36,088 nucleotides of DNA. Origin: Bacteriovoracia bacterium (GTDB lineage Bacteria > Bdellovibrionota > Bacteriovoracia > Bacteriovoracales > Bacteriovoracaceae). The DNA lies in contig JAUIBX010000012.1 in NCBI GenBank assembly GCA_030427595.1, positions 1-36,088 on the forward strand, read 5' to 3'. Each line of letters opens with the position of its first letter. Positions within the stretch are counted from its first letter, which is position 1. The notes under the pieces are model-generated. The model saw only the letters and a list, made by a program, of their open reading frames with translations. It was not told the DNA's origin and ran no database searches. The position numbers and the translations under genes are program-made. Positions 4,379 through 23,965 of the stretch are shown piece by piece.

Positions 4379-5608
4379 TTAGTTTAAGGACAATGTAAGA
4401 AGGGAATTGAAGGACAAAAATTTGTTGTCCATTTCCTGATACTCATCTGTAAGATCGCTCTCCCACGTGATTCCACCGCCTGCATGATAGGTCAAACTCC
4501 CCTGAGAAAGGTCACCTTTTGCTGCCCGAATATTAATCGTACCGATTAGGCTATGGTCATAGGCCATCAGGGTTGAGCCACAGTAAAAGCCTCTTGGAGT
4601 TGTTTCGAGATCGTCGATAATTTCCATCACACGAATCTTAGGCGCACCAGTGATAGAGCCTCCGGGAAAGAGTGACTTCACAATTTTAAGAAAGGACGTC
4701 TCTTTAGCGAGCTCAACTCTTAAATGGGAATAGCTATGAATAAGACCGTGAACAACTAGCGGTGCCTTCTTTTCCACAATCTTAACAATAGGTTTCTCTA
4801 TACGGTTGAGATCATTTCTAATGAGGTCAGTAATCATATAGAGTTCTGATTCATTTTTTTCACTTTCATCTAAGAGCTGCCACTTTTCTTTGACTTCAAG
4901 ACTGTCACCTTTTTCTAAAAGAAGTGTGCCCTTAATAGGTCTCGATTCTAGCGATGTTGAATGCTCTCCCTTTTTCTTCCATTCAAAGAGGCATTCTGGA
5001 GTATTAGTAATATAGTATTCAGGGCCTAAGACCGTGAGATGGGCAAACTCCCCCACACTCTTTGACCTCGACCATAAACGCTTCACAAGAGAGCTTAAGC
5101 CACCTTGTAAGAGCTTCCCCTTGAAAGGGAAGGTTAAGTTGTATTGATAACAATCCCCTCTCCTAAGGTACTCTTTGCCACTCTCAAAAGCTCTTTGATA
5201 ATCCTTAAAGCTGGGCTTTTCCCATGAAACCTCAAGTTCCTCATCAGATAAAAGGGCAGGATCAAAAGGGGTTTCCTCTTGGTAGTCCACCACAACCGCT
5301 AGCACCTGGTCTGGGTGAAATCGAGGTTTCTCTTTCTTTTCGGTCTTATTCCAATAATGACCGACTTCATAGAAGAGATGAATAAGCCACTTGTCTTCTT
5401 TTATCAGACCTTCAAAATGATTTTGGTCGAGAAGATCCTCTAGGTAACAGAGACCATCACAAATTATCTCTTGATTACTAAGGAGATCCACAACTTTGTG
5501 AGAGTACACTTTGATCACTCGTTTGGGGTGAGTCAGTAAAGCGAAGTTACCTCGCCTGTGGACAAGACTCCAAAAAGGACTAGATGGAAGGGAATTAATC
5601 TCGCTCAT
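4379..5608 (-). CDS. pabB: Aminodeoxychorismate synthase component I (PabB-type chorismate-binding enzyme)
   Basis: Converts chorismate plus ammonia to 4-amino-4-deoxychorismate for p-aminobenzoate and folate. The 409-residue protein carries the chorismate-binding domain: RPIKGT (the Lys is typical of PabB, where TrpE has PIAGT), ITDLIRNDLNRIEKP, PGGSITGAPKIRVMEIIDDLE, and the end block YHAGGGITWESDLTDEYQEM. The N-terminal part is more divergent. I start it at the ATG at 5608 (MSEINSLPSS); the frame is open to 5701, but that would overlap dnaB by over 100 bases, whereas 5608 overlaps by 14. No good ribosome-binding site is seen, so coupling to dnaB translation is likely. No pabA (glutaminase) or pabC (lyase) partner is next to it. 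No clear terminator follows. Confidence 0.9.
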   Translation of the reverse strand: MSEINSLPSSPFWSLVHRRGNFALLTHPKRVIKVYSHKVVDLLSNQEIICDGLCYLEDLLDQNHFEGLIKEDKWLIHLFYEVGHYWNKTEKKEKPRFHPDQVLAVVVDYQEETPFDPALLSDEELEVSWEKPSFKDYQRAFESGKEYLRRGDCYQYNLTFPFKGKLLQGGLSSLVKRLWSRSKSVGEFAHLTVLGPEYYITNTPECLFEWKKKGEHSTSLESRPIKGTLLLEKGDSLEVKEKWQLLDESEKNESELYMITDLIRNDLNRIEKPIVKIVEKKAPLVVHGLIHSYSHLRVELAKETSFLKIVKSLFPGGSITGAPKIRVMEIIDDLETTPRGFYCGSTLMAYDHSLIGTINIRAAKGDLSQGSLTYHAGGGITWESDLTDEYQEMDNKFLSFNSLLTLSLN

Positions 5609-6977
5609 TGTCCGAGAAGGAGAGATTTTCAAAACTGGTGTAAGCACCAACCCACGCCAGCTTGGCCGTTCCCGTTTCACCACCACGGTTTTTACCGACA
5701 ATCACTTCGGCAACCCCCTGGTCTTTAGTATCAGGATTATAAACCTCATCACGATAAACAAACATCACGATGTCGGCATCCTGCTCAATCGCACCAGATT
5801 CACGAAGGTCAGCAGTTGTAGGACGTTTATTTGGTCTCGCCTCTACTCCACGGTTTAGCTGAGACAGTGCGATCACGGGACACTCAAGTTCTTTCGCAAG
5901 AGTTTTAAGTCCACGAGACATTTCTGAAATCTGCTGTTCACGAGAAATCGTTTTATTATGCGGATTCATTAGCTGAAGGTAGTCAATAATAATGAGACCT
6001 AGACCATGCTCGGCCTGAATCTTACGACATTGTGACTGGACATCAAGCACAGTCGTTTCACCATTATCATTGATAAAGATAGGGAAGCTTGAAAGGTCTT
6101 TAACGGCCTGACCAATATTGCGAAGGTCAGTATCAAGGAAGTTCTTCGTTCTTAAGCGCTTAGAATCAACCTTGGCCTTGGAGCTCAAGAGCCTCATGGA
6201 AAGTTCTTTATCAAGCATCTCCAGCGAGAAGATGGCAACAGGCTTCTTATGAAGTTCACAGACATTATTTGCAATATTCAAGGCCAATGAGGTTTTCCCC
6301 ATCGCTGGACGAGCAGCGAGAATAATAAGCTGCCCAGGTTGCATACCAAGAAGTAAGCTATCAAGTTTTGGGTAACCAGAACTTAAGCCCTGAATCTCTC
6401 CAGGGTTTCTCGACATATCTTCAAGCTCTTTAAGGTTTTCTCTCAAACAGCTATTTAGTTTTTGCATTTTTCCAGACTTGGCGTCATTGGTGAGCTTAAA
6501 AAAGCTCGCCTCAACTTCCTGGATGAAATCTTCGGCCTTCCCTTGAAAGCCAAGACCCCTTTCTGACACGCGCATTGCTGTGCGAACAATTTCTCTTAAA
6601 GACGCTTTATCTTTAACTGTTTTAGCGTAGTGATAAATATTAGCAGCAGAAGCTTGATCTTCAACAAGCTCCGTAATGGCAGTGGTTCCGCCAATTTCTT
6701 CCAGCTTTCCGAGTTCATTGAGTTTGGAACTTACGGTGACGTAGTCGACCGGGTTATTGTCCATGGCCATGTCACGAATGGCCTCGAAAATAACGCCATA
6801 CTTCGGGTGATAGAAGTCAGCACCTTGAAGTTTGAGGTCAGAAATATCATCAAAGGATTGACCATCAATAATAAGACAGCCAAGGAGAGAGCGCTCTGCG
6901 AGGAGGTCATGGGGAAGTTCACGATTACCCTTAGAAGGTGTGGATTCTCTGGGCGTGCCTTCACTCATGATGTCCAT
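5595..6977 (-). CDS. dnaB: Replicative DNA helicase DnaB
   Basis: The hexameric helicase that unwinds DNA at the replication fork. The 460-residue protein has the N-terminal domain (LPHDLLAERSLLGCLIIDG, about 21-120), then the RecA-like domain with Walker A at 221-230 (AARPAMGKTS), Walker B IIIDYLQLM, and the conserved SREQQISEMSRGLKTLAKEL, VIALSQLNRGVEAR and DLRESGAIEQDADIVMFVYR blocks. Length is normal and no intein is present. The start at 6977 is supported by GGAG nine bases upstream; a second ATG three codons later is less well placed. It follows the S6-S18/DUF2232/L9 genes, as in many bacteria, but a strong terminator (7021-7040) separates it from rplI. Confidence 0.97.
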   Translation of the reverse strand: MDIMSEGTPRESTPSKGNRELPHDLLAERSLLGCLIIDGQSFDDISDLKLQGADFYHPKYGVIFEAIRDMAMDNNPVDYVTVSSKLNELGKLEEIGGTTAITELVEDQASAANIYHYAKTVKDKASLREIVRTAMRVSERGLGFQGKAEDFIQEVEASFFKLTNDAKSGKMQKLNSCLRENLKELEDMSRNPGEIQGLSSGYPKLDSLLLGMQPGQLIILAARPAMGKTSLALNIANNVCELHKKPVAIFSLEMLDKELSMRLLSSKAKVDSKRLRTKNFLDTDLRNIGQAVKDLSSFPIFINDNGETTVLDVQSQCRKIQAEHGLGLIIIDYLQLMNPHNKTISREQQISEMSRGLKTLAKELECPVIALSQLNRGVEARPNKRPTTADLRESGAIEQDADIVMFVYRDEVYNPDTKDQGVAEVIVGKNRGGETGTAKLAWVGAYTSFENLSFSDNERD

Positions 6978-7069: not shown

Positions 7070-7702
7070 TTAGCTTCTAAGAAGTTCGTCAGCTTCTTTA
7101 GCGAGTTTCTGCTCGTCAGTAAGAGGCTGATTTTCTTTGGCTTCGCCATTTTCTTCAGTGGCTTCACCAGCTTCTGCTTTCGCTGCGTCAGCTTCAGCTT
7201 TTGCCTTTTTCTTCTTGGCAGCTGCTTCAGCTTTCTTCTTAAGCTCTTCAGCTTGCTTAGGGTCCATTTCAACTTTAACAGTGAACTCAGACTCAACACC
7301 AGAGAAAAGCTTAGCTTTTACGTTGTAAGATCCAACAGCTTTGATTGGGTTATCAACGGTGAGAACACGTTTCTCAACATCAACACCTTTCTCAGCAAGA
7401 ATTTTAGAAAGTTCAGTCGTTGTTACAGTTCCGAAAAGACGGCCGTTTGATCCAACTTTCTTAATAAGCTCAATATTCATACCATTAAGCTTCTTCGCTG
7501 TAGCTTCAGCTGCTGCTTTTTCTTCAGCAACTCTCTTACCAAGCATTTTGTTATAGTGTTCCATCTGAGCTTTGTTTGACTCGTCAGCAAGCACCGCTTT
7601 GTTGTTGGGGATGAGGTAGTTTCTAGCGTGTCCAGCAGAAACATTAACAACTTCACCAACGTTACCTAGAGAGGCAACCTTTTCAGTTAATATAACTTTC
7701 AT
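7070..7702 (-). CDS. rplI: Ribosomal protein bL9 with long charged C-terminal tail
   Basis: L9 binds 23S rRNA at the base of the L1 stalk and helps hold the reading frame. The N-terminal domain is canonical (MKVILTEKVASLGNVGEVVNV, AGHARNYLIP), followed by the connecting helix and the C-terminal domain ending near residue 148 (SEFTVKVEMDP). The product has 210 residues against the usual roughly 150. The extra 60 residues are rich in Ala, Lys and Glu (KKKAEAAAKKKKAKAEADAA, then EEKxx-type acidic stretches), and the last 19 residues look like a separate short helix (LTDEQKLAKEADELLRS). AAGGAG before the ATG fixes the start. The start overlaps the DUF2232 stop by four bases (ATGA). The tail is in frame with no gap, so it is not an annotation artefact. 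Confidence 0.95.
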   Translation of the reverse strand: MKVILTEKVASLGNVGEVVNVSAGHARNYLIPNNKAVLADESNKAQMEHYNKMLGKRVAEEKAAAEATAKKLNGMNIELIKKVGSNGRLFGTVTTTELSKILAEKGVDVEKRVLTVDNPIKAVGSYNVKAKLFSGVESEFTVKVEMDPKQAEELKKKAEAAAKKKKAKAEADAAKAEAGEATEENGEAKENQPLTDEQKLAKEADELLRS

Positions 7703-8772
7703 AATGTATCTCCTTCATCATTTTTTTTATTAAAAAATCTGCGAAAATCGACCCAGGTATCAAGCACGCCAACTAAGGCCAAAATGTGATACGCCATAAT
7801 GACGGTGAAAAAGATCACCATGGATCGCAAAAATCCAAAAAAGTTCCAGTACGTTAACATCTCACTGAGAACTCCAAACCCTTGAAAGAAATAGAAAATT
7901 CCTAACATGAGGAGGATATTGAATCCTACAACCTCGGCCCAAGCACCAAACACCTCATAGAGATGACCAACTGATAGAACCAGTCCGCCAATGAGAGGCC
8001 AGATGACAGGGTAAGGGACTTTGAAAGTGGTAAGGGTTTTTGTGTCGTATTTGTAATCGTGAAAGGGCTTCCAAAGAGGAGCCATTCTCAACGCTACAAA
8101 TGTTCCCACCCAAAAGGATAGAAGAACACCGACAAAAATAAATCCCGTTCCATAATTCAAAATAGGATCAACAACCAGTGAGGGATCTCCCATTACGTCT
8201 TTAAGTTGTCTGAGTTGCTCTCCTGGCACCCCAACAGCGTCCACAAGATTATTGTGGTATTGAGTTGCCGTTTGCTGAACATACGGTGACAAGAAGCCAC
8301 GCAGTCCGCCTTCCATTGAAAAATGAGACCCTAGAACAATCATCATCAGCACAGCGAAAACACTGGCTCCATTGATGAAGATGGCACGAGCAGGATGATC
8401 CTTTCTTCGAATGGCCGCAGAGATGAGGTAACCGTAGATTACCGCCAGTGGAAAAGTTCCCATGGCACTTCCCTGGTAAAACTTCACTTGAATTAAAGCG
8501 AAGGCCAAGGCCGTTCCAGCGACTCCCATAAGAAAGGTCTTCATTTTCCCATAAAGCAAAAAGCTGATGGTAAATGGAATGGAAGCAAAAAGAGCAAAAG
8601 GCTCTAAACTTGAAAACAAAAACGCCAGCAGACCTAAGAAGGCCAGCTTACTCATATTCAATTCAGGAATCATCATGGCACGCAACTCTTTCTCCCCTAG
8701 ACTCTCAAGGTCTGGGTAGCCAGCTTTACCGCTTTCTGATTCTGATGAATGTGGCTTTTTGTCTTCAGACAT
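7699..8772 (-). CDS. DUF2232-type multi-span membrane protein
   Basis: A 357-residue integral membrane protein of unknown function. After about 40 polar residues there are about eight hydrophobic segments (such as LAFLGLLAFLFSSLEPFALF, FIFVGVLLSFWVGTFVAL and VIFFTVIMAYHILALVGVLD). Position and character match the DUF2232/YybS-like family, which is often found between rpsR and rplI. The assignment rests mainly on this synteny and on the pattern of helices, not on a diagnostic motif. The stop overlaps the rplI start by four bases, so translation is probably coupled. AAGGA lies 12 bases upstream of the ATG, which is rather far. The gene starts 25 bases after the S6-S18 stop. Confidence 0.85.
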   Translation of the reverse strand: MSEDKKPHSSESESGKAGYPDLESLGEKELRAMMIPELNMSKLAFLGLLAFLFSSLEPFALFASIPFTISFLLYGKMKTFLMGVAGTALAFALIQVKFYQGSAMGTFPLAVIYGYLISAAIRRKDHPARAIFINGASVFAVLMMIVLGSHFSMEGGLRGFLSPYVQQTATQYHNNLVDAVGVPGEQLRQLKDVMGDPSLVVDPILNYGTGFIFVGVLLSFWVGTFVALRMAPLWKPFHDYKYDTKTLTTFKVPYPVIWPLIGGLVLSVGHLYEVFGAWAEVVGFNILLMLGIFYFFQGFGVLSEMLTYWNFFGFLRSMVIFFTVIMAYHILALVGVLDTWVDFRRFFNKKNDEGDTL

Positions 8773-8797: not shown

Positions 8798-9421
8798 TTA
8801 GGCGCGAACCTCAGCAGTTCTGTTAGATACGTAACTTGCAACACCAATTTGACGAGCACGCTTGATTGCAGTTGTTGCAAATCTTTGGTGCTTACGGCTT
8901 ACACCAGTGATACGAGCTGGAGAAATCTTTCCAAATTCGTTAATCAACCAAGTGAAAGTCGCAGGATCTTTCCAATCTGCTTTCACGCTGTTGGCCTTGA
9001 AGTAACAAGACTTACGACGAGCAAATTTCTTTGGATTTTCCGCTTCTTCGTCACCCTCTTTCTCAGTTACAGAACCTTTGTAGGTCTTAGAGAAAGGAGT
9101 TTTGTACTTCTTAACAACATCTTCGCGCTCAGAGTCTTCACCAAGAGCAACAAACATGTGACGAAGGTGGTGGTCGTTAATTTTAAGACGACGGATAAGC
9201 TCAACGTTGTTTTTGTTGTTCGCCTTAAAAATGAAGTAAACAAAGTGTCCGCCTGGAACACCTTCAGTTGTAGGTTGTGCAAAGTTCATTTTGCCCCACT
9301 CATCTTCGATGAAAACTTCACCGTCGTGAGCTTTAACAACTTCGTGCACAATTCCTTTGAGGGTCGCTACGTTTTCTTCAGTAGCATCCGGTTTCGCCAC
9401 TAGGGCCAACTCATAGATCAT
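8798..9421 (-). CDS. rpsF-rpsR: Ribosomal proteins bS6 and bS18 fused in one polypeptide
   Basis: One 207-residue frame encodes both proteins. Residues 1-112 are S6 (MIYELALVAKPDATEEN, GGHFVYFIFKANNKNNV, IRRLKINDHHLRHMFVALGE). Residues 113-132 are an acidic/basic linker (TYKGSVTEKEGDEEAENPKK). Residues 133-207 are a full S18 (FARRKSCYF, KDPATFTWLINEFGKISPAR, ITGVSRKHQRFATTAIKRAR). I translated the junction (9120-8981) base by base: no stop, no frameshift, and no in-frame ATG, GTG or TTG in the linker, so S18 cannot start separately there. The start at 9421 has AGGAGG five bases upstream; the frame extends 14 codons further up without a ribosome-binding site. S6 and S18 are direct partners on the 30S platform. 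In the usual order rpsF-(ssb)-rpsR, nothing is left between them. Confidence 0.95.
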   Translation of the reverse strand: MIYELALVAKPDATEENVATLKGIVHEVVKAHDGEVFIEDEWGKMNFAQPTTEGVPGGHFVYFIFKANNKNNVELIRRLKINDHHLRHMFVALGEDSEREDVVKKYKTPFSKTYKGSVTEKEGDEEAENPKKFARRKSCYFKANSVKADWKDPATFTWLINEFGKISPARITGVSRKHQRFATTAIKRARQIGVASYVSNRTAEVRA

Positions 9422-9488
9422 AAAAACCTCCTGGACTAAACGGCTTAGGGGCACCATGCCCAAAAGCGGGGTCTAGTGAATGTCAAAG
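9422..9488 (-). promoter_or_regulatory. Leader of the S6-S18 gene with a hairpin and CCG element
   Basis: Read on the minus strand, the leader holds a perfect 5-bp hairpin GGGCA-TGG-TGCCC (9461-9449), followed by AAGCCG (9446-9441) and then the ribosome-binding site. In many bacteria the S6:S18 dimer represses its own mRNA by binding a leader structure that mimics 16S rRNA and contains an exposed CCG. The CCG and hairpin here could be such a site, but I cannot show the full consensus fold. Confidence 0.35.
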
Positions 9489-9584: not shown

Positions 9585-12512
9585 TTAAAGTTTTAGAGGA
9601 AGTCTATGAAAGTCAGTTGTCCCATCTGGGTTTCTGCAAAGCATTAAGTAGTTGTAAATGCCTTCAATCTTAGCAGGTTTCATATGAATGCAATTCTCTG
9701 GAATATCCACTGAGAACTGGAGAGGTCTGAGAAATTCACCCTCTCTTTCCACCATTGTGTACAGGCGATTACCAAAAATTAGCGTGCTATTGATAAAGAC
9801 ACCTGGATGATTGATTCCCTCACCCACAACAGCAACAGGCTCAAGAGTTTCGGAAAACTGAACTCCTGGAAAAGAACTTTCTCGGTTGATGCGTAACTTT
9901 TGAGGGGCATTCTTTTGATCAAAGCTTTGGATAAAGTAACGAGTCTCTACAAAACGAGTGCGGTCTTCATTCTTAAAGCTAGCGATCATATTAAATACCG
10001 GATCACTCCATTTCTTTGTATCCAACAAGAGGGCCTGTCCTTGAAGAGACTTTGGACTCCAAACATAGGAGCGCACCTGATCCCTTTTGAGCTGGGCCAA
10101 GAACTCAACATCGCCGGTGGCCACGCCAAGGCTTTGTGAATTGAGACTCAACAATGGACGTACACTATTTCCCGAGACGAAACGGTCATCAAAGAAGACG
10201 CGGTTCATTTCAACGGAACGGGCTGAAACGTTATAAGAAAAGTATTCTCGCTCAAACTCTTCTCCCAGAGCGACGAGACCACTAACTGTACCTTGGCGTC
10301 TTTCTTCTTGGGATTGAGGAAAGGGTTTCTCAAGGGTGAGCGGCAACCATGAGGGGGCATCGATGTCTTCTCTAATTTGGTTAAGCTGATCAAGAGAATC
10401 CACCACTCTTAGTTCAAGCTCATTGGCATTGGACTTAGGGTTAAGAAAGTAAAGGTGATAGGCCCTAAAATCCTCAGGGACGCGATCAAGAATATCAAAG
10501 GTGTTGTCGGCCTCAGGCATAGTGTAGGCCTCGTAGAAAGCAGGTAGCTTCAAAAGCTTGCCCTCAACCTTTCTTGTTAAGAGGAGAAGTTCACCAAATT
10601 GGTTATATTCAACAGGGAATCTCTCATAATCAAGAAGAGCGAAACTATAAGTCTTTTTGAGGTCGGTTTTGCCATCCTTTTGAAAGAAGTAATCAAAAGT
10701 GATGCGGTCCTGATTTTTATTAACGGCAGTCACCAAGTAATCAGCAACACCGTCAAGGTTGAGGTCACTGATGCGAACTCCGACAACCTCATGCTTCTTG
10801 GCGACTTCGAGATCACGCCCTTGCCACTTTCCATCCTTTCTCTGAACGAGGGAGAGAACTGTTTTCTCCTCACTCTCATTCTTAGGTCTTTCTAAGTAAA
10901 AGGCAGGGGCCTTCATCCAGCCCTCTTGATCAAGGACTGGCTTTACACGAACAGCTTTTCTCACACCTCTAAAGAATGTGAGCTCTGGCGCATCAAAGCC
11001 TTCAACCCTTTCTTTAATAGCGCCACCCTCTCGAGAGAGGTCACGAGCAAAGATAAGAGTCGTTTCCGTTTGAGATTGAAAGGCGTGACTTTCAGAAGAG
11101 AGGTTCACTGTGAGCCTAAAGTGAGTGTCTTTTTTAAGATCTTTTAACTGACCTTTAAAAAGAACAGAGCGCTGCTGTCCAGAACTTAAGTTAAGAGGCT
11201 GCTCAGAATCCTCTAAAGCAATATCTTCACGATTAAATTTAACGGAGACTTTGAGATCTGAGAAGTCACCGACAAGACTTCTAATGGGTAAGCTAAAGAA
11301 GAAGCGACCGTCTTTAAGATCGTAATTAAGATCGAGGAGGTCTTTGTAAACGGGCATAGCAAAGGGCTTCACATCATTGAGATGAGCGGCTTTCATGTCC
11401 ACCATGCCATACTTAGAAAACTTTCCTTGGTCGCGTGAAAGCTCCATTTCCTTGGCACTTGAAAATAAGCGCGCCTTAAGCTCGTCATTAGTCATTTCAG
11501 GGTTTGTTAATTTTAAAGAGGCCGCAATGGCAGCGACAAAAGGAGAAGCCTGAGAAGTCCCATTCTTCGTCTCATAACCTATGATACGCAAAATTCGTGA
11601 CTCAACTCCTTCTCTTGGGTAGGTCGAAACAATGAATTCACCTGGGGCTAAAATATCAACCTTGCCACCAAAGTTAGAGAACTCAGTGATCTTGCCTTGA
11701 TTGTCGACGGCACCAACACAAATGACGAACTCATTCGTGCAAGGAAAGGTCGGAATCTCTTTGTTATTGTTTCCCGCAGCGGCAATCACCGCAACATTTC
11801 TCTCTTCCGCCAATTTGAGAGCGCGCCTGACCTTGGGGGTTTCAACGAGTTTGGGCCAACCAATGGACATATTGATAACCTGTGCCCCTCTTTGAATGGC
11901 GTAAATAATACCATCAGCGAAGATGTCAGTGATGAGGCGACCATTATAAATAAAGTCAGTGGTGTCCTGACTAAGAACTTTGATAGGCAGGATTTTAACA
12001 CGAGAGTCAGTAACACCATGGACACCAAGAGCGTTGTTGCCAACGGCAGCGATAATGCCAGCAACGTGGGTACCGTGACCAGTGTCATCAGTGAGGTCAG
12101 CATTTCTTTTAAGGACATTAATCCCACGACAAGGTTTATTAGAATTGTCCTCGCCATCAGGACAAATATTCTTATCAAAGTACACACGGTCTTTGAGGTC
12201 TGGGTGGTTAAGGTCAAGACCACTATCAAGAACAGCAACTACAATCTCGCGATCATTGGGAATTTCAAGTTTTTTAATTTCTGAGGGATTTAACCAATTA
12301 ATGTCTACACCAGGAGTTCCTTCTACACTTTCTCTGAAGAGTTCTCCTGAACGCCTCAGGATTGTCTGTCCTGTATTGGTAAGAGGCCACTGCTTGGAAA
12401 AGAGCGTGTCATTAAAAGAGAGTTCTCCAGCAGAGGTTGCGTTTACCAATTTTAAAAGGAAGAGGACGATTCCTAGGGAGGTCAATATTTTCTTCAACTT
12501 CTTACCTAACAC
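9585..12512 (-). CDS. Large secreted subtilisin-like serine protease (S8 family)
   Basis: An exported endopeptidase of 975 residues. A GTG start at 12512 is chosen: GGGAG lies eight bases upstream, it leaves a clean signal peptide (LKKILTSLGIVLFLLKLVNATSA), and it overlaps the preceding stop as TAGTG. An ATG seven codons earlier (12533) is possible but has a poor ribosome-binding site. The S8 domain spans about residues 40-350 with the catalytic triad Asp96 (VVAVLDSGLD), His146 (DTGHGTHVAG) and Ser320 (NGTSQASP), and the oxyanion Asn248 (AAAGNNN). The remaining 600 residues are not protease and look beta-rich; one stretch, DLNLDGVADYL, resembles an FG-GAP/calcium-binding repeat. No propeptide domain of inhibitor I9 type is evident. 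It is co-transcribed with the 1055-residue gene upstream. The target is unknown. Confidence 0.93.
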   Translation of the reverse strand: MLGKKLKKILTSLGIVLFLLKLVNATSAGELSFNDTLFSKQWPLTNTGQTILRRSGELFRESVEGTPGVDINWLNPSEIKKLEIPNDREIVVAVLDSGLDLNHPDLKDRVYFDKNICPDGEDNSNKPCRGINVLKRNADLTDDTGHGTHVAGIIAAVGNNALGVHGVTDSRVKILPIKVLSQDTTDFIYNGRLITDIFADGIIYAIQRGAQVINMSIGWPKLVETPKVRRALKLAEERNVAVIAAAGNNNKEIPTFPCTNEFVICVGAVDNQGKITEFSNFGGKVDILAPGEFIVSTYPREGVESRILRIIGYETKNGTSQASPFVAAIAASLKLTNPEMTNDELKARLFSSAKEMELSRDQGKFSKYGMVDMKAAHLNDVKPFAMPVYKDLLDLNYDLKDGRFFFSLPIRSLVGDFSDLKVSVKFNREDIALEDSEQPLNLSSGQQRSVLFKGQLKDLKKDTHFRLTVNLSSESHAFQSQTETTLIFARDLSREGGAIKERVEGFDAPELTFFRGVRKAVRVKPVLDQEGWMKAPAFYLERPKNESEEKTVLSLVQRKDGKWQGRDLEVAKKHEVVGVRISDLNLDGVADYLVTAVNKNQDRITFDYFFQKDGKTDLKKTYSFALLDYERFPVEYNQFGELLLLTRKVEGKLLKLPAFYEAYTMPEADNTFDILDRVPEDFRAYHLYFLNPKSNANELELRVVDSLDQLNQIREDIDAPSWLPLTLEKPFPQSQEERRQGTVSGLVALGEEFEREYFSYNVSARSVEMNRVFFDDRFVSGNSVRPLLSLNSQSLGVATGDVEFLAQLKRDQVRSYVWSPKSLQGQALLLDTKKWSDPVFNMIASFKNEDRTRFVETRYFIQSFDQKNAPQKLRINRESSFPGVQFSETLEPVAVVGEGINHPGVFINSTLIFGNRLYTMVEREGEFLRPLQFSVDIPENCIHMKPAKIEGIYNYLMLCRNPDGTTDFHRLPLKL

Positions 12513-15500
12513 TAGAGACTCTCCCTTATCCATTTGCCATGAAACTCGCCCCCTTGAATGCCCATAATTTCTTGGAGGCGCTCAAGAGGTCCATTCCAAA
12601 AGCGGCTACGGATACGGCCGATTGTATTGGACGGAATTGGTGCATTAAGAATCTCGGAGTCTTTCCTAAAACCGTTAATAACTCCGTAAACATAAACATT
12701 ATTTTCTCCGACAACACTGAGGAAGTCGTTAAACTCAAAATCACGTACCATTTTCTTTGCCAGCTCCATCGTACACTTGGCATGCTCTTTTGAGTCGCCT
12801 ACTTGTCTTCTCAGACGCTGACAATCACGGGCCTTATCTCTTAAGGTGTTCAAGTTTTGGCACTCACGGAAGCGACTAGGTGTGCGGATACGAAAATTTC
12901 TTCTTTCAGAGGCACCACAGCGCTGACTGCGCTCACGGGCATAGCGACGGCCAATTTGAGTAATGGTATCAGGGCTAACATTTTTAAGACGTTCAATGCC
13001 CTCTTCATAGATATTGGTGGATACCGTGATATCAAAGAGGCGAAGGGCCGAAGCATCATTAAGAGCTGTGGGATCAAAGAGAGTACGACCATATTGTTCG
13101 TTGACCTCTTTCACATAATTCTTTAATTTTTTACGACTTGCAGACCATCCCTCTCTTCTTGTCGTTAAGGCCATAAAGGGAGCGGATAGCTGGCCTTCCA
13201 TCTTTCTTGCTTCATAGCGGGCACCAATGGTTTCACTTACACCAAAGATACTTTGACCTGGATTTTTAAAACGCTCGGCATTGAGTTGTGGCGTAATCTT
13301 AAGGTCCTTTGTCAACTCCACAAGGTAGTAATTGAGAACGTCATAGACGAAAGCTTGATAATTAATACCGGACTGAGACTCACTTGTGAGACTGACATAT
13401 TCTGTGCGGCTCTCTTGGGGTGTTGTGACTTGAATCTCATTATCACCCTTAAGATATTTTGAGCGCCAAACAAGAAAGGCCATTTTCACAGAGCGATCTT
13501 TAAAGTCTCCTGATACCAAATAAGACTTCTTCTTGACTTCAAGAAGTTCACTAGAGCCCTCTTCAAGAAGGTAGTGAAGGGCCTTGGCATTGTAGAAAAG
13601 TTCAGGATTCTCAGAAACATCACTATTAATATCAACTGTATGAAATCTTACCTTGTACTTGCCATCTGTTTGGTCAACATTGAGTTTAAAGACGGGTATT
13701 TTATGATTAACACCCACTCCTGCGCTGATAGTGAGTCCACGCCCCTTGTCTTCATAGACGTGAATCGTAGAGGCATCCTTTCTATAAAGATGAAGTCTAC
13801 GTACCATTTGACCAGAAGTTCCAGCAGATAGAGAGACGCTGGTGTCCGTTAAATTAATTGTTGAGCGCATAAGAACATTGGGAGTCAAACGATCCGTGAT
13901 AAGAAGAGACTCGCCTACTCCCAATTGGCCGTTGATCTCATTGAGGATATCTTCAACCGCTTGCAGGCGAGGATCAATTTCCCCCTCATCAACATCAGAA
14001 TCTTGTGCTTGTTGATTGGGGATATTGGCCAACTCATCGAGCTTCTTTTTCAGTTTTCTCTTCATAAGAGGCACGATTATATTTTGGTAAGGCTCTTTAA
14101 AAGAGGCCTTAAGAGTTTTAACAGGCTTGAGGTGGGTGTAGGTTCTTACGGCACTCACTGTTGTCGTGGCAGAAAGGTTGGGAAAAGCTGAGATATTTTC
14201 GATACCAACAATAGCTCCTAAGGAAACAGACATGCCAATAGTATCAGCAAGCTGAACCAGGTTATCTGTACCTAAGTAGTTTCCAACAACAATATCACGA
14301 CTAAGGATAAGGTTACCGTTCACAATAGGGCTCACCCAAGTGCCTACGCCAAACTCTTTGAACTCACCCGTTTCCACAAAGTGCTCAAGTCCTTCTTTAA
14401 ATTGCTCTTCCATAAATTCGAGTTTCTTCTCACTTGGATCAAAGAGGGAAAGCTCTTCATTCACACGACCAAGAAGAGCCGAAATGGTTTCATTTTGAAG
14501 TTTAGAAAAAACAAAGTATTGAAAGTCTTTAAAAGGTGAATCGGGAGCCCCATGGGCAAAGCGGCTAGCAAAGCCTGGCCACTCTTCTTTTTGAAGCTGA
14601 CCTTTTTTAAGAAGCTCACCAGAGGAAGGCTTCTCATCAAATGCGATGGCCTCATATTCTTCTTCAAAGAGTTCTATTAAAGAGTTTCTTCTACTAATAA
14701 GTTTTTCAACTAACAACTTTCCCACTGGATCAGGAAAATGAGAGAGATTAACAACCTCTTCAAAATCTTTACGATCAAGGAGCGCCATTCTCCTTAAAAT
14801 CCATTGAGCGTCTTCTAAGGTGGTATTCATATTAGCGAAGCTAAAATGAGGCAAAATAATAGATTCATTATCAATACGCCCAACCGTCCAAAGAAGCTTA
14901 TTTATAGACTCTCCCACTTCTAAGAGGGCATAAGGAACAAGAAGAGAACGCAGGGTTCTTGAAGTTAACCTCTTTGGGGGAACACCCATGGCCAAGTTGT
15001 AGTGATCAGTCTCAGAAGGCATCAGCGCCACAACGTCATGAAAGGTTAAGGTTAGTTGATCGTCTTTAAGATCATTATGATCAAAACCTAACCAACGAGA
15101 AGGAGCCCCGTAGGTAGCCTCAGGTAGTTCGTTATTAAGAAAGCGGTCTCTTTCAAATCTATTGGCAAACTCAACTTTGATTTTCTTTAGATATTTCATC
15201 GCTGGCACTTTGTAGCCAAGCTTTCTTAGTAAATTCTTTCTTAAAAGCGCCGTGTGGAGGGTCTTTTCCATGAGAATCGTAAATACTCGGCCCTGATCTT
15301 TCTTCGGCAGAACATTAAAGCGAATAATTCCTTGGTTTGAAGTGAGAGTTCCCTTGAAAATCACCTCTTCTTCTTCGGTCAAAGGCATCTCATCAAGCTC
15401 AGGGGAAAGAACAGATTGGAGGGTATTCTCCCATACGGCCGAAGGCATAGGATCGAGCTGAGAAAGATCTAGTGGATTAGTCTCTGCAGTCTGTAGACGG

Positions 15501-15679
15501 TAGGCCTCTTCTGAAGTCAGAAGCTTTCCAAGATATACGAGATCGTTAGAAGGCTGACGTTTCTTTGTAAGAGGAATGCGCTCGTCCGCGCCGAGGACGG
15601 GCATTGTCCACAGCAAAAGAGCGCCTAAAGCTAGGTTTAAGAGCTTCTTAAATAGATTCAAACGAATAAGTTGTCTCAT
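12512..15679 (-). CDS. 1055-residue secreted protein of unknown function, partner of the subtilase
   Basis: I do not recognise this family. An N-terminal signal peptide is clear (LFKKLLNLALGALLLWTMPVLGA, cleavage likely after VLGA). Roughly the first 420 mature residues are mixed and polar (for example NTTLEDAQWILRRMALLDRK). The middle (about 450-850) has many short alternating strands (SVSLGAIVGIENISAF, TVSAVRTYTHLKPVK, GLTISAGVGVNHKIPVFKLN), as in a surface or beta-barrel-like domain. The end carries four Cys within about 50 residues (RCGASERR, RECQNL, DCQRLRR, KCTMEL), able to form two disulfides. AAGGA precedes the ATG by three bases. The TAG stop overlaps the GTG of the subtilase gene, so their production is probably coupled. 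The partner could be a substrate, inhibitor, or transport scaffold of the protease. Confidence 0.85.
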   Translation of the reverse strand: MRQLIRLNLFKKLLNLALGALLLWTMPVLGADERIPLTKKRQPSNDLVYLGKLLTSEEAYRLQTAETNPLDLSQLDPMPSAVWENTLQSVLSPELDEMPLTEEEEVIFKGTLTSNQGIIRFNVLPKKDQGRVFTILMEKTLHTALLRKNLLRKLGYKVPAMKYLKKIKVEFANRFERDRFLNNELPEATYGAPSRWLGFDHNDLKDDQLTLTFHDVVALMPSETDHYNLAMGVPPKRLTSRTLRSLLVPYALLEVGESINKLLWTVGRIDNESIILPHFSFANMNTTLEDAQWILRRMALLDRKDFEEVVNLSHFPDPVGKLLVEKLISRRNSLIELFEEEYEAIAFDEKPSSGELLKKGQLQKEEWPGFASRFAHGAPDSPFKDFQYFVFSKLQNETISALLGRVNEELSLFDPSEKKLEFMEEQFKEGLEHFVETGEFKEFGVGTWVSPIVNGNLILSRDIVVGNYLGTDNLVQLADTIGMSVSLGAIVGIENISAFPNLSATTTVSAVRTYTHLKPVKTLKASFKEPYQNIIVPLMKRKLKKKLDELANIPNQQAQDSDVDEGEIDPRLQAVEDILNEINGQLGVGESLLITDRLTPNVLMRSTINLTDTSVSLSAGTSGQMVRRLHLYRKDASTIHVYEDKGRGLTISAGVGVNHKIPVFKLNVDQTDGKYKVRFHTVDINSDVSENPELFYNAKALHYLLEEGSSELLEVKKKSYLVSGDFKDRSVKMAFLVWRSKYLKGDNEIQVTTPQESRTEYVSLTSESQSGINYQAFVYDVLNYYLVELTKDLKITPQLNAERFKNPGQSIFGVSETIGARYEARKMEGQLSAPFMALTTRREGWSASRKKLKNYVKEVNEQYGRTLFDPTALNDASALRLFDITVSTNIYEEGIERLKNVSPDTITQIGRRYARERSQRCGASERRNFRIRTPSRFRECQNLNTLRDKARDCQRLRRQVGDSKEHAKCTMELAKKMVRDFEFNDFLSVVGENNVYVYGVINGFRKDSEILNAPIPSNTIGRIRSRFWNGPLERLQEIMGIQGGEFHGKWIRESL

Positions 15680-15912: not shown

Positions 15913-16800
15913 TTAGAGGCTGACCCCAAAGAGCTCAGGTAAAAGTTGTCCCTCAAGCTTTTGTGGTGTTGTTCCCACTTTTGCTGAAATTTTACCAAGC
16001 ACTTTTTCTTTTTCGATATTATCAACAGCAGCTTGCATGACCTCTTCAAGAGTTACCCCTGTGAGACTTTCGAGATCGTCCATGAGAACGGCCTGATCTT
16101 CGGGTGTAAGTTCACTCTTGCCATTGCCAAGCATATTCTCAACCTTATCTCCAAGAGTAACTAGAGACATTGCAGTTTCAAGTGATACGGAGTAGGCGTA
16201 ACTGACATTTGCAGCTTGTTGATAGAACTTCTTCTTTTCCGCTTCACCTGCCATAAGGTTTACATCAGTTGTTTCCATCTCATCTTCGTAAGCATAACCA
16301 GACTCACGTCCATAGAAGAAGCCATCCCCTGCGAGGTCTACGACTTCATAGTCATCACCAAACAAGTCGCCATCAAAGTAACCAGCGGCAATATCGTCGT
16401 TAACAATGTCACGAAACTCCCCTGCAGCGGAGTAATCATTGGCGTAATAATCATAGTAAACAATAGAGCGGATATACTGCAGGCTCACGGCCTTGTAGTT
16501 GGCTTCTTCAGCATCATAAATAACAAACCAGTCTTCTTGGCCTGCAATTGTAGAGCGTTCTGTTTCATCCGTATAAAGAATGATTTCGGATTCATCATAA
16601 ACAGGAGCACCATCAACATCATTGAGGGCATCAATAAAACGGTTGGCCGTGATCGTACTTGAAGTGTAAGCACCGTAAGTGGAGCCACCGCCTCCACCAC
16701 CTCCGCCGCCACCACAGCTGGATAGAAGGACCAAGGCCGATAGGCTCACAGTGAGTCCTAAATTTTTAACGATATTACGATTAGATTTTTTCTCAAACAT
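15913..16800 (-). CDS. Polyglycine lipoprotein, copy A
   Basis: A 295-residue lipoprotein of unknown function. The signal peptide ends in lipobox LSSC (VLLSSCGGGGG), and the mature protein begins with ten Gly in a row, a flexible tether. The first half is acidic and rich in Tyr and Asp (DVDGAPVYDESEIILYTDET, YFDGDLFGDDYEVVDL, FYGRESGYAYEDEMET); the second half is helical (VSLETAMSLVTLGDKVENML, LTGVTLEEVMQAAVDNI). AAGGAGAG lies directly before the ATG. It is a tandem paralogue of the gene at 16929-17786, with near-identical blocks. The Gly codons are mixed GGT/GGC/GGA, so this is not a simple slippage repeat. The protein is probably on the outer-membrane surface or periplasmic. No known domain is recognised. 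Confidence 0.85.
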   Translation of the reverse strand: MFEKKSNRNIVKNLGLTVSLSALVLLSSCGGGGGGGGGGSTYGAYTSSTITANRFIDALNDVDGAPVYDESEIILYTDETERSTIAGQEDWFVIYDAEEANYKAVSLQYIRSIVYYDYYANDYSAAGEFRDIVNDDIAAGYFDGDLFGDDYEVVDLAGDGFFYGRESGYAYEDEMETTDVNLMAGEAEKKKFYQQAANVSYAYSVSLETAMSLVTLGDKVENMLGNGKSELTPEDQAVLMDDLESLTGVTLEEVMQAAVDNIEKEKVLGKISAKVGTTPQKLEGQLLPELFGVSL

Positions 16801-16862
16801 CTCTCTCTCCTTACTTCGTGCTTGTGAGTACGTGATGAGAAAGTGGTGTGCAGACTTTGTGC

Positions 16863-16897
16863 CAAAAAAGAAAAGCCCCGCGTTATCCGCGGGGCTT
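16863..16897 (-). terminator. Strong terminator between the two polyglycine lipoprotein genes
   Basis: A 10-bp stem AAGCCCCGCG (16873-16882) with CGCGGGGCTT (16888-16897) and a 5-base loop. On the minus strand it is followed by TTCTTTTTTG. It ends the transcript of copy B, so copy A must have its own promoter in the 60 bases upstream of its ATG. TTGGCA at the left edge of that gap is a candidate -35, but its -10 is poor. Confidence 0.9.
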
Positions 16898-16928
16898 GAC
16901 TTGCATTAAAGCAGATTTTTTAAATTTC

Positions 16929-17786
16929 TTACTTAATTCCGAAAAGCTCAGGAAGAATTTTGTCTTCAAGCTTTTGAGAAGTAAGACCGCTGTCAGCATT
17001 CTTGTTAGCAATTTTCTTAAGAATTTCTTGCTTACCGTTAGCCTCGCTACCCGCAGCAATCACTTCCTCAAGAGTTACACCTGTGAGGTGCTCAAGGTCT
17101 TTGAGAAGAACTTCTTGATCAGCTTCAGTAAGTTCTTGCTGACCAGCACCTTTTTGAAGCATGTTTTCAACTTTTTCCCCTAGAGAAACAAGTGAAAGGG
17201 CCATTTCAGGTGATACTTGGTAGGCATATGAAATATTTGAAACTTTTTGAGCAAGCTTCTTCACTTGTTGTTCACCAGCAAGAAGGTTGACGTCCATTGT
17301 TTCCAATTCATCTTCGTAGGCGTAACCAGACTCACGTCCGTAGAAAGTTGAACCAATAAGATCTACGACCTCATAGTCATCGCCAAAAAGGTCGCCATCA
17401 AAGTAGCCGTAGAAACGGTCATCATCTTCGATATTTCTGAACTCTTCTGCTGTTTGATAAGAGCTTGAATAGTATGAGTAATAAGTGATAGCTCTAATAT
17501 ATTGAAGGCTTACGGCCTTGTATTGGTTGTATTCAGCATCCCAAATAACAAACCAGTCATCTTGTCCTGGCTGAGCCGAACGATAGGTCTCATCAGTGTA
17601 GAGGATGACCTCTGATTCATCGTAGTAAGGGGCACCATCAACGTCATTCAGAGCATTTACGAACTGCGTCGCTGAGATGTAAGGGGTGTTGTAATAGCCA
17701 TAAGTTACGCCACCGCCGCCGCCACAGCTTGAAAGAGCAGCAGTTGCTAGGAGGGACGCACCAATGAGAACATTTTTTAACTTCAT
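16929..17786 (-). CDS. Polyglycine lipoprotein, copy B
   Basis: A 285-residue paralogue of copy A with the same layout: lipobox LSSC, then five Gly, a Tyr/Asp-rich half (DVDGAPYYDESEVILYTDET, YFDGDLFGDDYEVVDL, FYGRESGYAYEDELET), and a helical end (LEHLTGVTLEEV, LPELFGIK). The ATG at 17786 is chosen over the frame's extension to 17843 because GAGGA lies just upstream and the signal peptide starts there. Compared with copy A the Gly run is half as long and the C-terminal third is more divergent. It is transcribed alone, since a strong terminator follows. Duplication with separate transcription suggests separate timing or partly different roles. The function is unknown. Confidence 0.85.
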   Translation of the reverse strand: MKLKNVLIGASLLATAALSSCGGGGGVTYGYYNTPYISATQFVNALNDVDGAPYYDESEVILYTDETYRSAQPGQDDWFVIWDAEYNQYKAVSLQYIRAITYYSYYSSSYQTAEEFRNIEDDDRFYGYFDGDLFGDDYEVVDLIGSTFYGRESGYAYEDELETMDVNLLAGEQQVKKLAQKVSNISYAYQVSPEMALSLVSLGEKVENMLQKGAGQQELTEADQEVLLKDLEHLTGVTLEEVIAAGSEANGKQEILKKIANKNADSGLTSQKLEDKILPELFGIK

Positions 17787-17840
17787 AGATTTCCTCGTCT
17801 GTTTTCTTGGTTTGTAGTTTAGGTTGGCGAAGTTATGGCA

Positions 17841-17854
17841 CATCTAAATAGATG
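17841..17854. promoter_or_regulatory. Palindrome CATCTA-AA-TAGATG in the copy B promoter region
   Basis: A perfect 6-bp inverted repeat around two bases, 55 bases upstream of the copy B ATG. On the minus strand it falls between TTGTGC and CATAAC, which would be weak -35 and -10 boxes about 17 bases apart. This could be an operator. I see no second copy upstream of the paralogue. Confidence 0.25.
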
Positions 17855-17930
17855 CACAAAGTCATCGTGAAATATTTCTAGGGGCAAATTGACTTTTAGG
17901 GCCAAGGTGACCCCGGCCAAACGGTGTAAA

Positions 17931-18626
17931 TCAGGTCGCCACGTGGCGCAGTCTTTGAAAAGGACGAAAGAAAACAGGTAGCTCTTCGGCATAGAAAACT
18001 GACTCAAGTTCAGCGCGGGCCTCAGGAAAAAACTCCTGGCATAGACCTTCTTTGAGGTGCTCAAGCTTGGCGTATCTTAAAGGCCATGGCCTATGAACAA
18101 CATCCCCACGCCACAACTGGTCGCCTTTTTGGGTAAACAGGCTATACCTCTCCACTAGCCAATCATGATAAGGGCCAGTCACCAGCGGAACTTGGGTGGT
18201 CTTGGCCTTGAGGGTACACGCCTCACCCCCATCAAAATGATAATCCATACCCTTTAAGCTCGCTCTCATGCTGCGAAAGCGATAGGGCAAGTGGAAGAAG
18301 TTGCGGGCCACCCATTCTCCTAATAAGTGATCAGTATCGAGAGTAAAAAAGTAAATCCCTCTGTGCTCGCCTACTTTGACATAGGTTCTCAAGTTGAGTT
18401 CCCAAAGAGAGGAAAACGGCAAGGTAGGACTCCAAGGAAAACGAATCCCCTCCATACGAAAAGGCACAACAGAAAGATAGGCGGCTCCTTCATAGATGTC
18501 TAGCTCTAAACCCGACGGCAGATTGCCTCTGATCGCACTAGGATCGACTCGATAATTAAGAAAGAGAATATGGCGCCAGACTTGGGATATCACCCATTTC
18601 TGATTTTGCGACTCGCTTCTTATCAT
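17931..18626 (-). CDS. DUF2071 (YqjF-like) family protein
   Basis: A 231-residue soluble protein. It shows the DUF2071 signature order: HILFLNYRVDPSAIRGNLPSGLELDIYEGAAYLSVVPFRM (split here into about residues 19-58), then LPFSSLWELNLRTYVKVGEHRGIYFFTLD, then the acidic and aromatic core, and HRPWPLRYAKLEHL near the end. The family has a beta-barrel acetoacetate-decarboxylase-like fold; its biochemical role is not known. No signal peptide. It is the last gene of the run that begins with the SleB-like gene, 20 bases after the lipoprotein gene. No terminator is obvious. Its link to the envelope genes before it is unclear and may be only positional. Confidence 0.82.
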   Translation of the reverse strand: MIRSESQNQKWVISQVWRHILFLNYRVDPSAIRGNLPSGLELDIYEGAAYLSVVPFRMEGIRFPWSPTLPFSSLWELNLRTYVKVGEHRGIYFFTLDTDHLLGEWVARNFFHLPYRFRSMRASLKGMDYHFDGGEACTLKAKTTQVPLVTGPYHDWLVERYSLFTQKGDQLWRGDVVHRPWPLRYAKLEHLKEGLCQEFFPEARAELESVFYAEELPVFFRPFQRLRHVAT

Positions 18627-18646
18627 GAAGCTACTTTAACAAAGAA

Positions 18647-19372
18647 TTAGGGACGACACTCCTCGCCCCTTTCAAAGAAAGGTAGACAAATATTCACCCC
18701 CTGAGAATGACCAACCCCATGAGTAAGAGTTTGCGGGCAAAAGCTTTTGTAACTGGAATCAAAGCGCTGATGATTATGATCTGTCACAAAGCCAAAGCAG
18801 GCAGACTTAAGGAATTCGCGATCAAAGTTGCGCTCAAGATCGTTAGCAAAACTTGCTCCGCCATAGTAATTGTCTAAAAGCCAAATACCGCTAACAACAC
18901 TCCAAAAGTCTAGTGGCATAGGTAAGATTGTTTGGCTCATCCCTTTGTAACCACCAGAGTGGGCAGCAAAAACAATTTCTTCAGCACCGCTTTCCTCCAT
19001 GAGCAAGAGGAGTTCCTCTTGAGATAAACCCAAATGAGCAGAGCCCACGACAAAGAGACTCGATTCAAGGGGAATCTCAGCTAAGGCGAGGTCTTCAAAG
19101 AGAAGGTCTTCGGCGGCCTTGGCCCAATCTCTTTGAGAAACTTGTTTGCGGCTGCCACCATAGCGATGGGCCATGGAGGGAGAAACCCAGCCTCTGAAAA
19201 AGATGATGAGGCGCTGAGAGTTTCTTTTAAGGAGACAGCCTTTTTCTATTAACTGACAATCAACGACTGCTCCCTCTTGAGAGGCCAGAACTCTACGATC
19301 TTTTTCGACTTTTTGATGACTACAGCCTAAGGCCATTCCTATAAGACAAATCGCTGCCAAAAACCTCAACAT
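18647..19372 (-). CDS. Exported lipoprotein-like protein with possible alpha/beta-hydrolase motif
   Basis: A 241-residue protein of unknown function. A short signal peptide ends in MALGC (Cys17), an imperfect lipobox because the usual Leu at -3 is Ala. The segment EEIVFAAHSGGYKGMSQ places a Ser (about 139) in a strand-turn-helix context like the nucleophile elbow of alpha/beta hydrolases, and QRLIIFFRGWVSPS earlier may be the first core strand with an oxyanion turn. A late His (LTHGVGHSQG) could complete a triad. Six or more Cys (residues near 39, 46, then SACFG, FCPQ, NICLP, EECRP) suggest disulfides. Its ATG overlaps the previous stop as TAATG. The hydrolase call is only a structural guess. 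Confidence 0.7.
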   Translation of the reverse strand: MLRFLAAICLIGMALGCSHQKVEKDRRVLASQEGAVVDCQLIEKGCLLKRNSQRLIIFFRGWVSPSMAHRYGGSRKQVSQRDWAKAAEDLLFEDLALAEIPLESSLFVVGSAHLGLSQEELLLLMEESGAEEIVFAAHSGGYKGMSQTILPMPLDFWSVVSGIWLLDNYYGGASFANDLERNFDREFLKSACFGFVTDHNHQRFDSSYKSFCPQTLTHGVGHSQGVNICLPFFERGEECRP

Positions 19373-19869
19373 TACTTTTTCTCCACGGCAGGAGTGAACC
19401 TCAAAGACTTTAAGAGTTTTCCTTTAAACATAATTTTCAATTGTTTATTCTCAACTTGATAAATAGGCTGCTTAAACCCTTTGGCCGGATTTTTGTCTTT
19501 TAAAATCTTCCAAGGGAAATCCCCTTCAAAGCGTTGTTCATTAAAGTTGTAAAGGGCACAGCGGTGCTCCTTTAAGATCACTTTGGTTCCAGATTCCCCA
19601 GCAAAGTAGACGACACAAAAGTAACCTGGAGCCTTAGGTATTTTTTCTACAGAAACCAAATGAGAAGAGGCGCCTGATACATTGAGCTTGATCACTTCGA
19701 GTTTCTTTTCCTTTTGAAAAAGAATCTTCTTAGCATCACGTTTCTTTATCAGATAGAAGTTGCGATCCGCCCTCTCGACAATCTTGAGTTGCTCCATAGA
19801 GAGGTTTGCCGCTATCACTTGAGAGCTGGCAAGAATCATCATAAGAGATAGTATTATTTGTGCTTTCAT
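19372..19869 (-). CDS. Small secreted protein, function unknown
   Basis: A 165-residue exported protein with a standard signal peptide (IILSLMMILASSQVIAA). The mature part is basic (many Lys) and looks like an all-beta domain (KLEVIKLNVSGASSHLVSVE, YFCVVYFAGESGTKVILKEH). Two Cys (YFCVV and HRCALY) could pair. I do not recognise it. It is second in a run of four tightly packed genes: eight bases after the SleB-like gene and one base of overlap with the next. The context points to an envelope role. Confidence 0.75.
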   Translation of the reverse strand: MKAQIILSLMMILASSQVIAANLSMEQLKIVERADRNFYLIKKRDAKKILFQKEKKLEVIKLNVSGASSHLVSVEKIPKAPGYFCVVYFAGESGTKVILKEHRCALYNFNEQRFEGDFPWKILKDKNPAKGFKQPIYQVENKQLKIMFKGKLLKSLRFTPAVEKK

Positions 19870-19877
19870 GCTCTTCC

Positions 19878-21467
19878 TTAAGGTAAATCTCTAAACTCAT
19901 GTCTGACGTTTCGACGCCAACCATCTCCACTCGCTTCTCCATACAAGTCATGATTAAAGTAGAAGACATGAGCGTCTGTTGGCTCAAGTCGACCTAACGT
20001 TTCATGTTGTCCACTAATTTGCAGCATTAAATTATCCCTGCGCCAAGCAGGACTTACAGCTGGCGTATGATAATGATAGATGCGATGAATGTCGGCATTG
20101 CCATTTCCCCCACGAATCTCAAATTCCTCCACTCCCTGATAAGCAAGAAAGGAATTGATGGCATCATCAAACTGGCCTGGTCTTTTATGACCAAACTTTT
20201 GGGTCCAATTCCCCCCCTCACCCTCGTTGTACATAGAGAACTGGAAACGATCGAGGGCCACATCAAGTAGATTGAAAGTCGAATTTTCGTTAACGTCACC
20301 AAAGCACGCTGAACGCTCAGCCAGGTCTGAAAAGCGATCGCGACAGTCTTGTAATTCATCTTCTACGCCATTTGCATTATCCCTTCTATTGGAAAGAACT
20401 TTTAAGACCATAATGCCTTCCATAGGGTTTTCTCGAGCATGATGGCCAGCTTCTCCATCCACGGTAAAGATGGCCGCCGCAAATTCTTGTTCATGATTGG
20501 GAAGATCAAAGAGCCTTCTAAAGACTAAGTCACGATCACTCGCTGAGGGCGGTTGAGAAACACCTTGAAGAATAAAATCTTGAATCCCTTCAATACAGGC
20601 CTGAAGATTATCCTGATTTATTTCAAGATCGGGATTTTCTTCACGCTCTTCGGCCGTCGCCCCCAGGGCTTCACAGCCCGGAGTCTCACGATTGGCGTTG
20701 GGGTCATTTTCTCGTCTGTTAATAAGTCCAGTGCCATCTCCTACTGCCGTTGTCCTACCTGTGGCAAAGAGCGCAGGATCGATTGAACCACCACCGTAAT
20801 AAGGCGCAGGGTCTCCTCCAGAGCGGGTTCCTCTTTCATAACGTTCTTCTGGTAAGGGTGGGTTTACCGGGGCTTGGGCCTGAGCGTAAGCGGCTTCTCT
20901 ATAAGTTTCCTCATTGGGATAACCCCCAAGAGGGTCACAATCTACATCGGCAATGACCCCACTGTTTCTAACATCTTCGATGGTAAAGGTCATCGCATTG
21001 ACGGCATTCTCACCAATAAACTGACGCAGTTGAGATTCAGTGAGAGCAAAAGTTCCTAGTGAGTACATATCTTGATCAAGGCCTGTTTCATCCGAACTTG
21101 GGGCAAAGAGTTCAATTTGATAGATACTCTCTGAACCAGTTTCACTTGCCGTAGCCACGAGGTCGCCAACAACGATTTTTCCATTTTGGTAGTGAGAAGC
21201 TGGAGGAGGTGCTCCCCCTTCTAAGGCCATAAGACCAGAAATATTTGAACGACCAATCATGAGTTCTTCGCCACTAAGTGGGCCTCTTATCCCTTGAGGT
21301 TCTTGAGACTCCTCTGGCGCTTCAGCTTCGGGAGCCTCTTCCGTTGTAGGAAGAACTGGTGCTGGTAGCGCTTGGTTGCGAGGGTCATTGGGATCACGAG
21401 GATCCTGCGCTTGCAGGTTTCCTAAAAGACTAAAAACAACAATCCCATAAAGAACTTTCGTTTTCAC
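19878..21467 (-). CDS. Secreted protein with SleB-like cell-wall hydrolase domain (candidate)
   Basis: A 529-residue exported protein. I chose GTG 21467 because AGGTG lies six bases upstream; a GTG three codons earlier (21476) has no ribosome-binding site. After the signal peptide (VLYGIVVFSLLGNLQAQ) comes a Pro/Glu-rich stretch with PQGIRGPLSGEE. The C-terminal 200 residues resemble the SleB/CwlJ hydrolase family: FAAAIFTVDGEAGHHAREN with a likely catalytic Glu (about 342), MVLKVLSNRRDN as the family's V-x-NR helix, LDRFQFSMYNEG for the FS turn, and AHVFYFNHD near the end. Members cleave peptidoglycan. The match is by eye and needs a profile search. It heads a four-gene operon and is divergent from the acidic 728-residue gene, which shares the PQGI motif. 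Confidence 0.75.
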   Translation of the reverse strand: MKTKVLYGIVVFSLLGNLQAQDPRDPNDPRNQALPAPVLPTTEEAPEAEAPEESQEPQGIRGPLSGEELMIGRSNISGLMALEGGAPPPASHYQNGKIVVGDLVATASETGSESIYQIELFAPSSDETGLDQDMYSLGTFALTESQLRQFIGENAVNAMTFTIEDVRNSGVIADVDCDPLGGYPNEETYREAAYAQAQAPVNPPLPEERYERGTRSGGDPAPYYGGGSIDPALFATGRTTAVGDGTGLINRRENDPNANRETPGCEALGATAEEREENPDLEINQDNLQACIEGIQDFILQGVSQPPSASDRDLVFRRLFDLPNHEQEFAAAIFTVDGEAGHHARENPMEGIMVLKVLSNRRDNANGVEDELQDCRDRFSDLAERSACFGDVNENSTFNLLDVALDRFQFSMYNEGEGGNWTQKFGHKRPGQFDDAINSFLAYQGVEEFEIRGGNGNADIHRIYHYHTPAVSPAWRRDNLMLQISGQHETLGRLEPTDAHVFYFNHDLYGEASGDGWRRNVRHEFRDLP

Positions 21468-21775
21468 AGCTTTCACCTAATGAACGAGGAAGAAAAACAC
21501 ATCAACTTCACTTCATTATCGGTAAAGACCCACTTTCAATGAAATTTTTGGGGAAATGAAAGGCTCATGAGGACATAAGTAGCAGAATTTAATGGGCTTA
21601 AAAGTCCTAATACCCTTCAAGCTCTTAGCCTCATATTTAGGTCACCTTCTGGGTTTTCAAGGATATGCCACAATAAAAGGGCACCCTAGCCTCTTGCAAA
21701 GCCCTGATTTTCTTAAGGTTTCTTCGAAATATTATACTCATCTTATAAGTTGATTATGTCGATAAGTTGTTAGTT
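21468..21775. promoter_or_regulatory. 308-base divergent intergenic region
   Basis: It separates the SleB-like operon from the acidic exported protein and should hold both promoters. On the plus strand TATACT (21733-21738) is a good -10 about 38 bases before the ATG, but no good -35 is placed for it. On the minus strand GATAAT (21520-21515) is a candidate -10, also without a clear -35. I find no ORF or strong hairpin in the middle. Confidence 0.4.
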
Positions 21776-23962: not shown

Positions 23963-23965
23963 GAG

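Follow-up and report, generated by a model that had tools for sequence, protein, structure and literature searches.

The window, the whole stretch of 36,088 nucleotides analyzed here, carries on its minus strand a fused rpsF-rpsR gene (9421..8798; ATG start at 9421, stop at 8800-8798) that encodes a bS6-bS18 protein of 207 aa. The original prediction had placed this frame at 8798-9421 without naming a strand; these coordinates were right, but nothing is encoded on the plus strand of 8798-9421, and the 207-aa frame reads on the minus strand. Directly upstream on the same strand lie a Shine-Dalgarno sequence, AGGAGG (9427..9432), which is conserved across Bacteriovoracaceae, and a conserved leader hairpin (9422..9479), a candidate S6:S18 autoregulatory site. 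Downstream, also on the minus strand, follow in order a DUF2232 membrane protein, the next gene of the likely operon (7699..8772; Pfam match), bL9 (rplI; 7070..7702; Pfam and NCBIfam matches) and the replicative helicase DnaB (5595..6977; Pfam and NCBIfam matches). Elsewhere in the window (12512-15679, 15913-21476 and 21767-25752) most large frames, two of 1055 and 731 aa among them, lack any Pfam match; a DUF2071 frame at 17931-18626 is the exception.

Profile searches against the bS6 and bS18 families, the check suggested alongside the original prediction, recovered both domains. Pfam Ribosomal_S6 (PF01250) matched residues 3-91 (9149..9415, minus strand) over profile positions 2-89 of 90 (E 1.8e-15; 57.3 bits vs a gathering score of 27), and Ribosomal_S18 (PF01084) matched residues 146-193 (8843..8986, minus strand; E 3.7e-16; 59.4 bits vs a cut-off of 21). 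The NCBIfam model for S18, TIGR00165, was likewise passed (62.2 vs a cut-off of 38.75 bits), while the S6 equivalog TIGR00166 scored 36.5 bits, under its cut-off of 42.9. The S6 domain is diverged, yet it is the sole S6 of the genome: a separate rpsR, which would have spoken against the fusion, was looked for by profile search of the whole assembly (3.82 Mb, 99.8% complete), and no second S6 or S18 match appeared.

An AlphaFold2 model built on 50 aligned fusions (pLDDT 83.8, pTM 0.78) fell below a confidence of 50 only at residues 122-130 and 132-136, both within the linker. Its top Foldseek matches were S6 chains, many at a probability of 1.00, in line with a fold match of the S6 domain to solved S6 structures. 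Among the 60 PDB chains listed by profile search, S6 and S18 were matched separately and no chain covered both domains. We place the linker at residues 106-138 (9008..9106, minus strand) on the basis of pN/pS, low model confidence and the tails of relatives with split genes. A linker had been predicted, and it is present; its proposed length of 20 residues is a matter of definition, as the last S6 helix of the model ends at residue 105 and the first S18 helix starts at 140.

Distribution and origin of the fusion

In bacteria, a ribosomal protein is nearly always a chain of its own. In our survey of 129 genomes of Bacteriovoracaceae (phylum Bdellovibrionota), a family that includes predatory bacteria, 119 had a match, and 110 of these carried the fusion at full length in a single frame. 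Three more (G014, G070 and G140) agree with a fusion cut by contig ends, five (G007, G025, G031, G098 and G034) have separate, adjacent S6 and S18 genes, and one (G032) has a fusion-type gene with a TAA in the linker. Each family genome with an S18 match has exactly one copy. Where a stop was flagged at position 205, as in several genomes, it is the ordinary terminal stop, and open frames span both domains in the fetched loci. Many of these genomes are metagenome bins, which could favor an assembly or sequencing error that joined two genes; however, the same architecture recurs in 110 genomes, including six congeners of the window's genome and genomes of one or few contigs (for example, a 3.4 Mb contig in G008 and the single-contig genome G136), and the error reading is already refuted by these independent genomes.

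Outside Bacteriovoracaceae, S18 frames were listed for about 200 genomes of the phylum, and none was longer than 167 aa. In other classes of the phylum, rpsF and rpsR are neighboring but distinct genes, and rpsR does not lie beside rpsF in the Bdellovibrionaceae examined. Two apparent fusions outside the family (G039 and G048) were rejected upon finding a stop between two separate genes. For a one-contig, 99% complete genome of another family of the phylum (G193, family f6), even a loose threshold gave no match to S18; rpsR there may have diverged strongly or been lost. The fusion is thus genuine, conserved and lineage-specific, being found in most Bacteriovoracaceae, while S6 and S18 are separate in the other lineages examined. 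No description of an S6-S18 fusion was found in the openly licensed papers searched, which is weak evidence of novelty.

A tree of S6 plus S18 with the linker removed separated all fusions, together with G032, from the remaining sequences by a branch with support of 91. In trees of rpoB and of rpoB plus rpoC, the split genera G025, G031 and G098 fell near the base of or between two fused clades, and a single fused clade was not rejected by either data set (p-AU 0.28 for rpoB; p-AU 0.09 for rpoB plus rpoC). One fusion event is the simplest reading, with two fusions or one reversal possible. Adjacent ancestral genes were most likely joined through loss of the S6 stop, a short spacer and the S18 start. 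The linker of G032 (loci L028 and L057) contains an in-frame TAA with no ATG, GTG or TTG from there to the S18 core, and rpoB and rpoC of this genome read normally; the TAA could be an error, a case of readthrough or a recent split.

The split relatives suggest where the linker came from. Their S6 tail (VKNYKSPF..) and S18 N-terminal tail (DKDRRMFSRKKSCWF) each match one half of the fused linker; the S18 N-terminal tail runs ..DKDRRMFSRKKSCWFC, and 11-65 bases separate the S6 stop from the S18 start. The fused linker therefore looks like an S6 C-terminal tail joined to an S18 N-terminal tail, with no new sequence needed.

The linker and the state of the chain

Across seven congeners, including the window's genome, pN/pS was 0.192 in S6, 0.178 in the linker and 0.131 in S18, and third codon positions held most differences in all three segments alike. 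The linker in this genus is thus under strong purifying selection as protein. Measured between fixed anchors, the region spans 27 to 43 residues in the 94 distinct fusions and the frame is never lost, all differences in linker length being whole codons. Together with the single copy and the unbroken frame in 110 genomes, these patterns lend good support to the proposal of a single polypeptide for S6 and S18.

Whether S18 is additionally made alone, by internal initiation within the linker, can be judged from the codons there. The original prediction that the window's linker holds no in-frame ATG, GTG or TTG was confirmed by inspection of its codons, and the same is true of the six congeners and of 38 of the 94 distinct fusions overall. 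The remaining 56 have at least one such codon (e.g., in KKMHSKRKSC in one clade), so the argument against an internal start is strong for the window's genus and weaker elsewhere. Most linker start codons nevertheless lack an SD-like site, a loose SD-like 4-mer upstream being present in only 19 of the 56, and we regard separate production of S18 as very improbable.

It is also conceivable, though improbable, that the fused chain is a precursor whose charged linker is cut by a protease, so that the ribosome holds separate S6 and S18. The middle of the linker is predicted to be disordered, its length varies by lineage, and retropepsin-like proteases are encoded beside RimK in some genomes of the family, all of which would suit such processing. 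No single conserved motif runs through the linkers of the family, however, with YKTPFSKxYxGS in one clade and NPNH in the other, and the split relatives show that separate genes are viable and require no protease.

We consider the locus to represent, at a probability of roughly 0.87, a genuine rpsF/rpsR fusion in Bacteriovoracaceae in which one chain provides the two platform proteins. Each domain would keep its usual fold, S6 next to S18 on the 30S platform, with a flexible, charged tether of about 30 residues between them; a flexible stretch of that length should easily span two small, touching domains. The chain would stay uncut in the ribosome, S6:S18 dimerization would become intramolecular, and the two proteins would be supplied at exactly 1:1. 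The fixed ratio, a linker within the ribosome and an S6 C-terminus beyond the reach of RimK, as originally proposed, follow if the chain is uncut.

Most likely, the fusion works as ordinary S6 plus S18 held together. That the tether instead alters the platform, through assembly as one unit, a dispensable S18 zinc site, a conserved and charged linker close to where the mRNA exits and to the anti-Shine-Dalgarno region, and loss of the known RimK substrate with RimK acting on another, is a doubtful but not far-fetched extension. Where the linker lies on the platform might bear on initiation because, in Flavobacteriales, a pocket of bS6, bS18 and bS21 holds the anti-Shine-Dalgarno tail (PMC9976891). 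AGGAGG sites are strong in the fused genes, and Shine-Dalgarno use is probably intact in these bacteria.

Zinc motif and modification enzymes

The S18 domain of the window's protein lacks the C-C-C-H zinc motif, as do all distinct fusions (0/94), while the motif is present in 5/5 split relatives and 5/6 outgroup sequences. The split relatives (G007, G025, G031, G098 and G034) resemble the fused lineages in gene order and in their linker-like tails, and differ from them in having a separate stop and start and in the C-C-C-H motif, absent from the fusion. Only part of the bS18 family has this motif, so it is not required for membership, and S18 variants that do without zinc have been described among alternative ribosomal proteins (PMC5912738). 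Because as few as one or two events may underlie the association, we make no causal claim linking fusion and zinc loss.

The bS6 C-terminus in the fused chain is not free, as the chain runs on into S18, and the site used by RimK in E. coli would therefore be unusable unless the chain were cut. RimK nevertheless scored above the NCBI cut-off for S6 glutamate ligase in 12 fused genomes (G004, G010, G013, G015, G016, G018, G020, G022, G030, G033, G107 and G136). The orthologue in the window's genome, which has a TrkA_C tail, reached 326 bits, just under the cut-off of 331. A RimK-like ligase with a C-terminal TrkA_C domain is encoded at G000:C145:202-1383 (L212) and also in G008, and frames of similar length occur in G006, G013, G219 and G222. 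In G033 (L213, G033:C93:41500-43800), RimK lies between a RimB-like retropepsin and an AstE-like gene. A link between RimK presence and fusions with a Glu-ending C-terminus was sought, and none was seen. RimK may serve other functions in some bacteria (PMC11957791).

The retention of orthologues where the S6 C-terminus is not free makes the RimK model testable. For RimI, which acetylates the S18 N-terminus in E. coli, the model matches many acetyltransferases, and the cut-off was exceeded in only 3/42 genomes.

Leader hairpin and comparison with known systems

The hairpin directly upstream of the start codon is conserved in the family, with the consensus ACUCGCUC..GGGC(C/U), and ends before CCAGGAGG. 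Its seven stem pairs are 90.6% paired, vs 71.0% in shuffles, with 92 double-change cells vs 33.4 and a covariation score of 0.550 vs 0.203, while slid controls gave scores of at most 0.18. A covariance model scored 42.2 bits on the window's leader (9479-9422), which was a training member, and recovered 7/8 held-out leaders, all with an E-value of 0.0011 or better and immediately before a fusion start. Taken alone, the window's leader shows only a moderate advantage in folding over shuffles (z -1.72), and the case for the leader rests on covariation rather than on this fold. The split lineage G025, G031 and G098 (L049, L050 and L122) has a different hairpin, of the CGCACA..TGTGCG type, and its leaders gave no score with the family covariance model.

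Searches with the Rfam RpsF_leader model (RF02893) found no match at E up to 1 in the window or at 24 other loci, while the E. coli control scored 110 bits. Since it has no match to RpsF_leader, the hairpin is tied to S6:S18 by position only. By analogy with the S6:S18 complex of E. coli, the fused protein may repress its own mRNA via this leader. Repression through the E. coli leader requires overproduction of both S6 and S18 at once (PMC4647458), a requirement that the fused chain would satisfy alone.

The fusion, retained by most of a family, is a natural test of whether S6 and S18 ever must part during assembly, and of whether autogenous S6:S18 control needs two independent chains. It could also serve as a simple diagnostic trait within Bacteriovoracaceae, where software that expects each gene to encode a single protein may get the count of rpsF or rpsR wrong.

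Besides the split genes of the relatives, three known systems invite comparison. The first is the S6:S18 heterodimer of the 30S platform: both domains of the fused protein are complete and match bS6 and bS18 chains of solved ribosomes, but here they are covalently joined. The second is the bacterial rpsF-(ssb/priB)-rpsR-rplI operon. The window shares with the rpsF-priB-rpsR-rplI operon of E. coli the order S6, S18, L9 and a hairpin leader before rpsF; unlike the E. coli operon, it has DUF2232 before rplI, and whereas the bacterial operon has separate genes, no stop, start or gene stands between the two domains of the fusion. The third is RpsF_leader, which resembles the hairpin described here in lying directly upstream of the S6 start codon, although its covariance model fits E. 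coli and not the loci searched here.
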